From NCBI GenBank assembly GCA_018613055.1, contig JAGGQZ010000017.1:1-64000 (forward strand): a DNA stretch of 64,000 nucleotides, written 5' to 3'. The position numbers and the translations under genes were made by a program. Shown piece after piece: positions 1,905 to 47,568 of this stretch (position 1 is the stretch's first letter; every line of letters starts with the position of its first letter). The notes below the pieces were generated by a model, which was given only the letters and a program-made list of their open reading frames with translations, was not told where the DNA came from and did no database searches. Source of the DNA: Chryseobacterium sp. ISL-80. Its GTDB lineage: Bacteria; Bacillota; Bacilli; Bacillales; Cytobacillaceae.

Positions 1905-2045
1905 AACTGGAAAAAATCGCTGAAAATTTCCAGTTCGCTATATAATTTGGTTTTTCGCTATAAAAATCTCATTTTCGCTATATTATTTGGATTTTCGCTA
2001 TTAAAATAATTTTTTCGCTATAAAAATCTGTTTTTCGCTATTATC
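1905..2045. repeat. Phased 20-bp repeat array with leader inverted repeat (array 1)
   Basis: A 9-bp perfect inverted repeat, AACTGGAAA (1905-1913) and TTTCCAGTT (1927-1935), is followed at once by six copies of CGCTA starting at 1936, 1956, 1976, 1996, 2016 and 2036. The period is exactly 20 bp. The unit consensus is close to TTTTTCGCTATAAAAATCTG. It lies between the terminator of the Fe-S gene and the start of the mrp-like gene. Related arrays occur at 36361, 46059 and 47507. Confidence 0.85.
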
Positions 2046-35371: not shown

Positions 35372-35494
35372 ATGAGCGACTTACACCGAAATCAGCCTCA
35401 GGTCGCATCATGATTTAAACCCGTGGTGCATTGGGAAGAGGAATGATTTGCCTTATTCTGAATATAGAAAGAGTTGGAAGGGAGATTTTTTATA

Positions 35495-36358
35495 ATGCAG
35501 CGGATTTTAGTTATTTTCCTGGTGATTACCGGGGCTTATATCGGTTGGAATTATTGGTTCGACGGAGATGGACTTAACTTTGCAAGAGCGGAAGATTCTG
35601 TAAAGGTAAGCAATGGTACGGAAAAAATCACGGTCGATGTTTCGAGTGTCGCGTCGAAGATTGTGCAAGAGGACCGAAATGATGTCCACGCTGAACTGGA
35701 AGGCAAAGGCTCGGTAAAAGTTATGCGTCACGGAGATGAAATCCAGGTAACTGTTAAGCGAAAAGGCTTCTTCTGGTTCAACTGGTTTGAGATGGATCAG
35801 ACTTCACTTACCATCTATATCCCGGAAGATTATGAAAAAGATATGGACATCGAGCTCGGTTCCGGGAAGATTGCTTTTAAAGGCAACTCAGCCGACCAAC
35901 CTGTGAAACTGAGAAACCTGGCAATCAATATTGGTTCAGGCAGCATGACCCTGGAAAATTTCGATGTTGAAAATCTGGAGCACCAGAGTTCATCCGGAGA
36001 GGTTAGCATGGATTCGATTTCTGCCAGCAGCGGTTCTTTTGATGTCAGCTCCGGAAGCGTCCATGTCAAAAACTATTCTGGAAAGCTTGATGCAGACGTA
36101 TCATCCGGTGAACTAGACATCCAGATGAAGCAGTTGATCGATGATGTTGACTTGAACGTCAGTTCCGGTTATATCGAATTGGATTTGCCTAATGAAGCAG
36201 ATTTTACTTTGGACGGAAAAATAAGCAGTGGCAACCTATCAAGCGATTTTTCGCTCAAAAATAAAGAGGCATCCAAAAACCGAATTCGCGGGAAATACGG
36301 AAGCGGGAAATTCCAAATCAACGCTGATGTTTCAAGCGGGAATATCAAAATAAAGTAA
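35495..36358 (+). CDS. DUF4097 beta-strand repeat protein, LiaG-like
   Basis: A 287-residue protein with an N-terminal membrane anchor or signal (residues 1-18) and a right-handed beta-helix-like body. The body is made of repeated short units such as IGSGSMTLEN, SSGEVSMDS, SSGSFDVSSGSVHV and ISSGNLSSDFS. LiaG in B. subtilis sits in the cell-envelope-stress lia operon, but no liaFSR genes are here. ATG 35495 has GGAAGGGAG upstream. It is followed by a phased repeat array rather than a normal terminator. Confidence 0.8.
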   Translation: MQRILVIFLVITGAYIGWNYWFDGDGLNFARAEDSVKVSNGTEKITVDVSSVASKIVQEDRNDVHAELEGKGSVKVMRHGDEIQVTVKRKGFFWFNWFEMDQTSLTIYIPEDYEKDMDIELGSGKIAFKGNSADQPVKLRNLAINIGSGSMTLENFDVENLEHQSSSGEVSMDSISASSGSFDVSSGSVHVKNYSGKLDADVSSGELDIQMKQLIDDVDLNVSSGYIELDLPNEADFTLDGKISSGNLSSDFSLKNKEASKNRIRGKYGSGKFQINADVSSGNIKIK

Positions 36359-36360
36359 CC

Positions 36361-36515
36361 ATTGGCGAACTGGAAAAAAACAATCATAATTACCAGTTCG
36401 CCAATAAATTTTCATTTTCGCCAATAAATCAGGTGATATCGCCAAAAAAAAAAATTTCGCCAATAAAATTGTGAACTCCGCCAATAAAATAGTTTTTTCG
36501 CCAAAAAAAATTCCC
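36361..36515. repeat. Phased ~20-bp repeat array with leader inverted repeat (array 2)
   Basis: A perfect 13-bp inverted repeat ATTGGCGAACTGG (36361-36373) and CCAGTTCGCCAAT (36393-36405) leads into six CGCCAA motifs at 36399, 36419, 36440, 36458, 36479 and 36499. Each lies in a TTTTCGCCAATAAAA context. It begins 2 bp after the stop of the DUF4097 gene. A 35-bp block (36455-36489) is identical to 47524-47558 in array 4. Confidence 0.88.
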
Positions 36516-36659
36516 TACTCTGACCATATCCAGATTGATATGGGTTTCCCCACCTCATTTCTTCAATTTTTTCCTTAACTATTTACAAAACTGACATATA
36601 GAACATTTTTTCCATTAAAAGAGGCAAAATAATCAAAAATACCTTTTTTAAGGAGTATC

Positions 36660-37346
36660 ATGGAAACCATATTGACTACCATTTTGAGAACCCTTTTAGG
36701 CTTTGGTGTATTATTCCTTCTTACCCGTGTACTTGGCAAAAAGCAGCTCAGCCAGATGACCTTTTTTACTTATATCACCGGAATTGCTCTGGGAAATATA
36801 GCCGGTGATATGGTAGTGCATAGAGATATTAAATTAATTGATGGTGTTACTGGTTTGGCGCTCTGGGCCTTTTTAACGCTGACCATTGAATACATCGCTC
36901 TTAAATCGCCTAAAGCGAGAATTTTGCTGGACGGTGAACCGACCATCATTATCAAACAGGGAAAAATAAATGAAAAAGCAATGAAGTCCAATAAGCTAAA
37001 TATGGATGACCTTACCATGCTGCTAAGAATCAAAAATGTATTTTCGATAAAAGAAGTCGATTATGCAATCCTTGAACCAAATGGACAAATCAGTGTTTTA
37101 AAGAAAGTGGAATTTGAAAACGTTATTAATAAAAATGCTGGTATCCCCCTTACACCACGAACATTCTTGCCTTCGGAATTAGTTGTCGACGGCCGTATCG
37201 TTAAAAAGAATCTGAAGGAGTTAAGCTTGAGTGAAGACTGGCTGGCAAATGAATTAAAAAAGAAAGGGATCAATCGGCTGGAGGATGTCTTTTATGCTGA
37301 GCTCGAGAGTGATGGAACAGTAGTTGCAGAACAACGCTCTAAATAA
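36660..37346 (+). CDS. DUF421 (YetF-type) membrane protein
   Basis: A 228-residue paralogue of the product of 11151-11750. Three N-terminal membrane helices contain GKKQLSQMTFFTYITGIALGN. The tandem C-terminal DUF421 beta domains carry ILEPNGQISVLKK and AELESDGTVV. The length fits full YetF/YdfR-like proteins, which accumulate in spores in B. subtilis. Function unsettled. The start ATG 36660 has AAGGAG just upstream. Confidence 0.85.
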   Translation: METILTTILRTLLGFGVLFLLTRVLGKKQLSQMTFFTYITGIALGNIAGDMVVHRDIKLIDGVTGLALWAFLTLTIEYIALKSPKARILLDGEPTIIIKQGKINEKAMKSNKLNMDDLTMLLRIKNVFSIKEVDYAILEPNGQISVLKKVEFENVINKNAGIPLTPRTFLPSELVVDGRIVKKNLKELSLSEDWLANELKKKGINRLEDVFYAELESDGTVVAEQRSK

Positions 37347-46058: not shown

Positions 46059-46145
46059 AACTGGAAAAAACCAAGGAAAATTTCCAGGTCGCCAATAAAG
46101 TTGTGAACATCGCAAATAAAATGTTTTTTTCGCCAAAATACTTGT
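46059..46145. repeat. Phased repeat array, three units (array 3), left of the IS
   Basis: CTGGAAA (46061-46067) and TTTCCAG (46081-46087) form the leader inverted repeat, followed by CGCCAA, CGCAAA and CGCCAA motifs at 46090, 46111 and 46131. It is the same motif family as arrays 1 and 2 and lies between the bcd promoter and the insertion sequence. Confidence 0.8.
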
Positions 46146-46228
46146 TGAAATGAAGTTAGTATAAAAAGTGGACACAGGCATTGGCGTCATGTTTTAATCA
46201 TAACCAACAATAAAAGGGACGTGTAAAC

Positions 46229-46469
46229 ATGGCGGAAAAGTATAAGAAATATCCTATAGAATTTAATTTCATATGACACCCTACAGAAATGGGTAGCTGC
46301 CTATCGGAAAAGACAACAGGATGCAGAGAAAGACCGTCAGAACCGCTTATTAACCGCTTCAGAATACAAAAAATTATATGAAGCAGAAAGATTAAGAAAG
46401 TTGGAACTGGAGGAGGAAAATACAATCTTAAAAAAGGCGATGCACATCTTCACGCAAGAAAAGAAGTAA
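46229..46469 (+). pseudogene. IS3-family orfA, internally deleted and frameshifted
   Basis: The frame starts MAEKYKKYPIEFN and reaches TGA after 15 codons. The C-terminal part resumes in another frame as LQKWVAAYRKRQQDAEK to LEEENTILKKAMHIF with the leucine-zipper-like end of OrfA. The N-terminal helix-turn-helix region in between is missing, so the protein cannot bind IS ends and the copy is probably immobile unless helped in trans. Confidence 0.8.
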
Positions 46470-46510
46470 AGTTTGCTTTCATCCATTCAGAGAGGGATGA
46501 GCACACCATC

Positions 46511-47377
46511 GTGAGGATGTGCAAAGTACTAGGTGTTACTACTTCAGGTTATTATGCATGGCTAAAGCGTCAGGAACAGGGTGAAACAGAAAAGCAGAAA
46601 CAAGACAGACAGTTGGATGAACTCATCATTTCTCACTTTTATGAGAACCTTTCTACATTTGGTAGTCCTAGGATCCACAAAAAGCTTTTGACAGAGAATA
46701 ATATAAAGGTCTCACAAAAGAAAGTAGCCAATCGTATGAGAGCGCTTAGCCTCTATGCGACGCCACCGAAAAAATATGTTCATACTACCGATTCAAACCA
46801 TGACAAGAGAACATATCCAAATGTACTAGACCGTAACTTCAACCCCAAGGCGCCTAATAAAGTATGGGTAACTGATATTACCTATATCCATACAGGAGAA
46901 GGTTTTATTTACATGAACCCTGTTATTGACTTATTTTCACGCCGGGTTATAAGCTACGCCATTGACGATAATATGGAGCATACTCTGCCACTCCGTGCCT
47001 TAAATGAAGCTATTGCATTACGAAACCCCGAAGAGGGTTGGATCCACCATTCAGATCGTGGATCACAATATTGTTCGAACAATTATATCGAAACCCTTAA
47101 GACAGCTAAAGCCACAATCAGTATGAGCAGGAAAGCGACTCCTTATGATAATGCCTGTGTAGAGTCCTTTTTTGCTTCATTGAAAAAAGAATACCTTTAT
47201 AAATTTGTATTTCCCACAAAGGCAGCCGCGGTAGCAGCTGTCGAGTTTTATGTGCAATTTTATAACAGGAAACGGATTCATTCCACACTTGAATACGCCA
47301 CTCCAGTTGAGTGTGAATTGGCGTTCGAAAAGGCGCAAAGAGAAGACGCCAATAAAAAAGAGTTGCCCTCAGCCTAA
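46511..47377 (+). CDS. IS3-family transposase OrfB
   Basis: A 288-residue DDE integrase-core transposase. Asp in VTDITYIHTGEG, Asp in WIHHSDRGSQY and Glu in CVESFFASLKKEYLY form the catalytic triad. FSRRVISYAIDDNM and FYNRKRIHSTL are also typical. The frame is open upstream to about 46469, where a -1 frameshift from orfA would normally make the fusion OrfAB. GTG 46511 is only the first possible start. Confidence 0.9.
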   Translation: MRMCKVLGVTTSGYYAWLKRQEQGETEKQKQDRQLDELIISHFYENLSTFGSPRIHKKLLTENNIKVSQKKVANRMRALSLYATPPKKYVHTTDSNHDKRTYPNVLDRNFNPKAPNKVWVTDITYIHTGEGFIYMNPVIDLFSRRVISYAIDDNMEHTLPLRALNEAIALRNPEEGWIHHSDRGSQYCSNNYIETLKTAKATISMSRKATPYDNACVESFFASLKKEYLYKFVFPTKAAAVAAVEFYVQFYNRKRIHSTLEYATPVECELAFEKAQREDANKKELPSA

Positions 47378-47506
47378 TGGAATAATCGGTTTTTGATTTT
47401 TCCTTTAGGCTGAGGCATCCAAACGAAGTGTAAACGGAGTGCGGAATAAAAAATACGCCAATCCCTGGCATAAAATAATCTATTTTATTGACAGAAGTCC
47501 AGAAAT

Positions 47507-47568
47507 CGCCATTAAAAATAAATTTTCGCCAATAAAATTGTGAACTCCGCCAATAAAACAAAATTCCC
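47507..47568. repeat. Phased repeat array, three units (array 4), right of the IS
   Basis: CGCCAT/CGCCAA motifs at 47507, 47527 and 47548 with a weak leader pair CTGG (47464 region) and CCAG. The block 47524-47558 is identical over 35 bp to array 2. An extra CGCCAA lies at 47456 near the IS end. Confidence 0.75.

Follow-up and report, generated by a model that had tools for sequence, protein, structure and literature searches.

Intergenic arrays of 20/21-bp direct repeats with a 31-bp inverted-repeat leader in Mesobacillus-type genomes, candidate rows of protein-bound DNA sites

BOX elements of Streptococcus pneumoniae are built from an end module and repeated inner modules, of which the boxB modules are about 45 bp long and form RNA structure. 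REP/BIME elements consist of paired palindromes of 20 to 40 bp, CRISPR arrays hold near-identical repeats of about 25 to 40 bp with unique spacers of similar length, and the eukaryotic Sal boxes, sites for TTF-I, are tandem terminator-protein sites behind rRNA genes that stop polymerase. STAR repeats of Staphylococcus, according to the available part of their description, carry the 14-bp GC-rich consensus T(G/A/T)TGTTG(G/T)GGCCC(C/A) and leave 40 bp or more between one repeat and the next (PMC3532100). In Beggiatoaceae, as far as the available text goes, TAACTGA direct repeats form many short intergenic sets per genome with a patchy distribution, and the heptamers lie mostly a short way upstream of start codons (PMC4679880).

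Here we describe arrays for which we found no description among the best-ranked papers of the openly accessible literature, subscription papers being outside that scope. A typical array comprises a 31-bp inverted-repeat leader followed by three to eight units with the core T-CGCCAATAAA or T-CGCTATAAAA. Its nearest analogues are the STAR and BOX repeats, and STAR, judged from the available part of its source, is the nearest described kind. STAR repeats and our arrays are alike in being direct repeats scattered over intergenic sites, each with a short conserved core, locus-specific spacers and a variable repeat number, but the core sequence and the 20/21-bp pitch set our arrays apart from STAR's longer core and wider spacing; the accessible STAR text mentions no fixed leader, and it describes STAR loci as differing between species (PMC3532100), whereas the arrays occupy 28 orthologous sites across several species. 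With BOX, the arrays share the plan of a modular small interspersed repeat that joins an end module to a variable number of inner modules, but their units measure 20 to 21 bp and are unstructured in the copy that was folded, and the end module lacks co-variation at the testable position. Like REP/BIME elements with RAYT, they are extragenic, often behind genes and present in many copies, with a palindromic part of fixed orientation, yet they are fixed-pitch direct repeats rather than paired palindromes. The likeness to Sal boxes and TTF-I is an analogy of repeated protein sites behind a gene, with no common sequence or protein claimed. A CRISPR array was rejected, because an 11-bp core, spacers of 9 to 10 bp and dozens of loci do not fit that definition. 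Finally, the arrays resemble the TAACTGA repeats, as far as these are described in the accessible text (PMC4679880), in their many intergenic direct-repeat sets per genome, patchy distribution and unnamed binder, but differ in lying mostly behind genes and in having a leader and a pitch of 20 to 21 bp.

The array at the center of this analysis (36368 to 36509) lies in what we call the window, the whole 64,000-nucleotide stretch of contig JAGGQZ010000017.1 that was analyzed, which belongs to a Mesobacillus-type genome (4.75-Mb draft). Its features are collected in Table 1, for which Pfam was run on six window genes, the two that flank the array and four others. As the preliminary description had it, six CGCCAA motifs, one at the start of each unit, are spaced 20, 21, 18, 21 and 20 bp apart. 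The 13-bp perfect inverted arms that it took for the leader are also present, but they differ from the leader of the family, a 31-bp inverted repeat starting AACTGG. As a leader type the extended arms proved local: of 92 leaders, 6 are preceded by the outer GGCG extension, and these come from two orthologous sites. Within its usual 9-bp arms, the window leader has an A.A mismatch, and it folds with 6 bp. Directly 3' of the array, a short inverted repeat seen by eye (CCATATC/GATATGG, 36524 to 36545) is possibly the terminator of the DUF4097 gene. In the third array of the window (46059 to 47557), a transposase-type gene (46511 to 47377, with rve and HTH_21 domains) separates the two halves, so that an IS3-family element looks to have inserted there. 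Elsewhere in the window lies a TPP riboswitch (RF00059; 33499 to 33608, minus strand, 79.7 bits).

Table 1. Positions of the window array, its flanking genes and the two sister arrays in the window
Feature	Position	Strand	Remark
Upstream gene, DUF4097 protein	35474..36358	+	stop codon ends 9 bp before leader
13-bp perfect arms of the preliminary description	36361..36405 (36361-36373 / 36393-36405)	+	outer 7 bp local to this site
Leader, 31-bp inverted repeat AACTGG...CCAGTT	36368..36398	+	same length in 43/43 leaders recognized among 48 units-only arrays
Unit 1, 20 bp, CGCCAATAAA core	36399..36418	+	
Unit 2, 21 bp	36419..36439	+	
Unit 3, off-length at 18 bp, core spelled CGCCAAAAAA (variant)	36440..36457	+	
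Unit 4, 21 bp	36458..36478	+	
Unit 5, 20 bp	36479..36498	+	
Unit 6, last core, variant CGCCAAAAAAA	36499..36509	+	
Downstream gene, YetF/DUF421 protein	36660..37346	+	
Sister array, CGCTAT type, six units	1905..2045; leader 1905-1935	+	
Sister array, leader end, apparently IS3-type-interrupted	46059..46146; leader 46059-46089	+	
Apparent far half of interrupted sister array	47507..47557	+	

The design recurs well beyond the window. A three-motif pattern gave 53 + 67 matches in the genome against 0 + 3 for its reversed control, which bears out the earlier proposal of a dispersed element that is not due to chance. BLAST of the window array found 23 places in its own genome, itself included, and 38 arrays were collected there; together with the pattern matches and the spacing counts, this supports a constant design that recurs at unlinked intergenic sites, and does so in two unit types. 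Spacing between adjacent complete cores closer than 30 bp is 20 or 21 bp in 391 of 393 cases and 19 bp in the other 2, and none of the 393 joins the CGCCAA type to the CGCTAT type. Some of the loci had been retrieved with patterns that permitted 18 to 24 or 19 to 22 bp. The 18-bp step of the window array falls outside this count because the adjoining core is a variant. Larger core distances below 70 bp cluster at 39 to 41 and 59 to 63, and the spacers vary freely in sequence while the 20/21-bp pitch is kept. Core positions 7 to 10 hold one base at 82 to 100% in 20-bp units, whichever their type, and in 21-bp units of the CGCCAA type, part of unit 1 being fixed by the search pattern in this count; the T before the core is present in 97% of 20-bp units versus 62% of 21-bp units (C in 35%). 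Variant units of other spelling occur in some arrays (e.g., L044 and L142).

The leader is equally regular. In 48 arrays of two genomes that were found by their units only, the 43 recognized leaders are all exactly 31 bp long (28 to 34 bp permitted); 40 of them abut unit 1, and the remaining three stand 20 bp away from it, the distance that a single decayed unit would leave. Among the 5 arrays without a recognized leader, one is cut by an IS and one is a chance coding-region match, which remains among the 48 as L029 but was dropped (L001, position 225) from the placement, unit and own-genome counts. The length rule rests on this units-only set because the other leader pattern could see only leaders of normal length or longer. 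In the same way, finding loci by the exact string TTTCCAGTTCGCYAWWAAA makes the inner arm look invariant, which is ascertainment, so the arm comparisons below also use the units-only arrays.

Co-variation of leader and motif had been put forward as a sign of selection on pairing, and such selection was not borne out. In the unbiased set, leader position 3 alone varies in both arms, and its two bases are independent (CG 13, CA 13, TG 8, TA 7, AA 1 and AG 1; Fisher p = 1 for CG/CA/TG/TA), which leaves an RNA hairpin leader with selected pairing unsupported. A tolerated leader hairpin is compatible with these counts, since a C.A pair on one strand reads as G.U on its complement and co-variation is judged at one position. 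By the measure of REP-type palindromes, the units are direct repeats that, in the window copy, fold no better than shuffles, and the leader is an inverted repeat without position-3 co-variation; the array RNA of that copy has no stable fold in either sense (z of 0.17 sense and −0.23 antisense). A mini-hairpin in each unit (TTTT-CGCCAAT-AAAA) was rejected by eye, since the T/A letters on either side change with no compensating partner. The inner arm instead follows the unit type: CCAATT precedes CGCTAT in 12 of 19 cases and CGCCAA in 0 of 24 (p = 3.3e-6), and among 110 matches listed it stands before CGCTAT 36 times and once each before CGCCAA and CGCTAA. The outer arm does not track unit type. 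The leader end and the unit travel together or are read together.

Within the genus, all 21 genomes have matches, G012 having few (6 versus 1 in its control). Among the matches listed, leader plus first core occurs in M. subterraneus, M. boroniphilus, M. selenatarsenatis, several Bacillus sp. ISL and Cytobacillus oceanisediminis, and single matches of this kind in unrelated bacteria are probably chance. Across the family, 64 of 151 genomes match, 21 of them from the genus; outside it, the units are others (TCCGCCAAACT, TCGCCAATAGAAC, TTCGCCAAA and TTCGCTAAA, at 20 to 22 bp), many genomes have one or two matches, and no 31-bp-type leader was seen in the copies inspected. A tighter pattern matched 10 of 199 genomes of the order, five of them from the genus; two from another family (G234 and G263) carry several CGCCAA/CGCTAA arrays of 20 to 21 bp, and each of the remaining three has a single place. 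A small number of matches outside the genus is not evidence alone, because reversed controls are high in some genomes (2 + 19 in G008, 20 + 45 in G040, 10 + 48 in G085 and 38 + 8 in G297). Arrays with a 20- to 22-bp period and other CGCYA(A/T) units are nevertheless found in other genera of the family and in one other family, and such unit diversity at a kept period would fit co-evolution of site and protein. Three further observations belong here. The reversed control motif is abundant in G035, G040, G047, G085 and G297, where other phased repeats may exist. In another genus, two loci (L178 in G090 and L179 in G118) hold 18 and 23 motifs in near-identical, CGCYATCCGCCAGTATTTCT-like 20-bp units, which might represent an expanded relative or, alternatively, a minisatellite of a separate kind. 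A locus of G116 (L182) has 21 motifs in mostly alternating 21- and 22-bp units (CGCTAAATTAGTGATACTTTAA / CGCTATATCGGTGATGGTTTA), i.e., two interleaved unit types.

Relative to genes, arrays are placed in a polar manner. By mechanical ORF calls, 93 of 106 arrays have an ORF on both sides, the 13 at locus edges being left out of the count, and in 72 of the 93 the upstream ORF runs in the direction of the array; the settings are tandem genes (50 sense, 15 antisense), convergent genes (22) and divergent genes (6). The window's own genome agrees (29 of 38 share the direction of the upstream gene), and no theme of shared function was apparent by eye among its 38 upstream products. The 21 of 93 arrays that oppose the upstream gene count against reading them as gene-end boundaries. 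Of 115 arrays, 53 have a terminator-like hairpin in the 100 nt that precede the leader, 49 of them within 26 nt (median 8), a count that omits arrays without a recognized leader or too near locus ends. In the controls, ends of ORFs that lack an array had a hairpin in 111 of 729 cases when the window was matched and in 138 of 729 when the 100 nt past the stop were taken, although these are mechanical ORF ends and some are not real gene ends. Random, mostly coding windows gave 150 of 3,000, and the opposite strand of the array windows gave 15 of 115. After the array, hairpins were found in 8 (sense) and 16 (antisense) of 115. By this crude detector, 62 of the 115, the window array included, lack a terminator-like hairpin before the leader. 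The window array may be transcribed, since its leader starts 9 bp after a stop codon with no hairpin in between.

Taken together, the one-base control of spacing, a fixed-length inverted repeat that gives no sign of selected pairing and a pitch kept across genera whose unit cores differ point to protein-bound double-stranded DNA, and the position behind genes, often right after a terminator, points to a boundary role. The explanation we favor, tentatively and at somewhat less than even confidence, is that each array is a row of double-stranded DNA sites for a putative sequence-specific protein, acting as a boundary behind genes. Such a protein would recognize the 11-bp core and fill neighboring sites side by side, each site taking up about two helical turns, and the 31-bp inverted repeat could serve as a fixed end site for nucleation or stop. 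The bound row, lying behind genes and often just past an intrinsic terminator, would then form a boundary, either as a roadblock to read-through RNA polymerase or as an insulator or anchor of the chromosome in its origin-proximal half. That DNA-bound LacI roadblocks polymerase in E. coli is established, according to the available part of the source (PMC4132739). The CGCTAT arrays count against phased binding, because their pitch of almost exactly 20 bp drifts by about half a turn over six units relative to 10.5 bp per turn, so that these rows leave a strict single helix face.

The main rival to protein-bound DNA is an RNA landing site such as Rut. Given its mostly sense position behind genes, the array might act at the level of RNA, whether read-through or 3'-UTR, as an open landing site poor in G that serves as a Rut backup terminator or binds an RNA-binding protein or small RNA, and the sense RNA of the window copy is indeed unstructured. 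Base composition agrees in part: C exceeds G on the array strand in both types (19.7% C and 12.2% G in 76 CGCCAA arrays, 13.7% and 10.6% in 44 CGCTAT arrays), and YC dinucleotides per 100 nt number 11.4 in sense versus 3.7 in antisense for CGCCAA, and 5.7 versus 3.7 for CGCTAT. Rut peaks of B. subtilis, in the part of the source available, average about 100 nt and are less structured, G-poor, richer in C than in G and pyrimidine-rich. By that measure the arrays have more C than G and are open, yet are A-rich rather than pyrimidine-rich: purines predominate in the conserved AATAAA half of the core, the arrays are 42 to 43% A, and the CGCTAT type is YC-poor. Furthermore, flexible single-stranded RNA would not need one-base spacing such as that of the 391 of 393 core spacings, a terminator-like hairpin stands ahead of 53 of 115 arrays, and no Rfam family matches the array above its gathering score, the TPP riboswitch being the sole match in the window. 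We infer that DNA rather than RNA is the likelier target of the putative protein, and consider an RNA-level element unlikely.

Orthologous sites bear on whether the arrays are instead a selfish or neutral interspersed repeat, MITE-like or STAR-like, that spreads by copying without host function and is homogenized by slippage and recombination. Arrays recur in the same gene neighborhoods of other species. For 28 orthologous sites we compared 114 distinct pairs (89 distinct leader starts), obtained from 275 by removing identical or repeated ones; both sets ranked the sequence classes alike. In units 2 and later, mismatch is 5.3% at positions 1 to 6, inside the search patterns, and 9.3% at positions 7 to 10, outside them. 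It is 10.5% in the outer leader arm minus TGG, and 2.8% in the inner arm and 2.4% in TGG, both of which are partly fixed by locus finding; elsewhere it reaches 31.2% in the leader middle, 30.2% in spacers, 26.1% in the 3' flank and 17.4% in the partly coding 5' flank. The preliminary description had made the element depend on copies at matching positions in close relatives. The window array is present at the same site in G006 and G007, but it has decayed to fragments in G004 and is absent from G012; G019 has a CGCTAT-type array farther upstream of the same downstream gene. A strong DNA match to the downstream gene was confined to G000, G004, G006, G007, G012 and G019; in the remaining 15 of 21 genomes the match was weak or missing. 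As the cores are able to erode, the low change elsewhere suggests, on this sequence comparison, that the core and the outer leader arm are under constraint.

This constraint relative to spacers and flanks is at odds with a selfish repeat, as are the spacers that stay alike in some orthologous arrays (L111 and L158), which argue against recent homogenization there. On the other side stand dozens of copies per genome, a unit number that varies between orthologous arrays, runs of identical units (e.g., L068 and L160), the decayed copy in G004, and a switch of unit type in 17 pairs at five sites (e.g., L018/L064/L109, and L038 versus L063, L082 and L083), one of which (L054) is uncertain because two arrays lie close together. 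Neither a target duplication nor a clean empty site speaks for transposition: apparent empty sites among the fetched loci mostly kept a leader or decayed units, and the sole gap without either, in G012, is too diverged to define an insertion point. An inverted repeat, expected of a MITE, is seen at one array end only. Matches to the Y1 transposase family (PF01797), the family tested for RAYT-type mobilization, occur in 18 of 21 genus genomes but not in G016, G019 and G020, all of which have many array matches and so apparently do without it. A comparison of the window array with 50,697 phage and 72,556 plasmid records also yielded no match at 1e-5, which leaves a phage or plasmid origin for it unsupported. 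Overall, a repeat without host function strikes us as improbable, to about the same degree as the RNA-level reading.

A third alternative keeps the protein-bound row but supposes that it is selected for structuring the origin-proximal chromosome, through nucleoid folding or supercoil domains, and not for transcription. Of 141 arrays listed for five closed genomes, 120 fall in the half of the chromosome nearer the origin, for which dnaA served as marker, and 83 in the second quarter of the way from origin to terminus. Lengths in this count are approximate in four genomes, where leader-bearing arrays alone were counted, G003 has at least the arrays listed, and the sites are partly orthologous between the five genomes and thus not independent; the bias may also partly reflect where conserved genes lie, core-gene density being a possible contributor. 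Co-orientation with the fork is modest (91 of 141 arrays listed), as gene direction alone could give, and a purely chromosome-organizing site leaves the enrichment of hairpins just before leaders unexplained. For these reasons we rate this alternative as less likely still. A coding repeat is dismissed because the 20-bp pitch shifts the frame.

Returning to the bound row behind genes, a bolder form of this reading, which we regard as doubtful, is that the arrays constitute an undescribed Bacillaceae chromosomal element: rows of sites kept in helical phase for one dedicated DNA-binding protein. Its motif and the sites would have diversified jointly between genera, two specificities per genome would swap at the same landing sites, and the rows would form gene-end boundaries concentrated origin-proximally. 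The use of small interspersed bacterial repeats is mostly obscure, and these arrays offer testable features: a one-base spacing rule, sequence signs of constraint at orthologous sites, a preferred orientation relative to genes and terminators, a gradient along the chromosome and unit types that have switched naturally at a shared site. If a protein binds the rows, they would represent a gene-boundary or chromosome-structuring system unfamiliar from Bacillus subtilis; if none does, the arrays would still present a striking constraint on noncoding periodic sequence.
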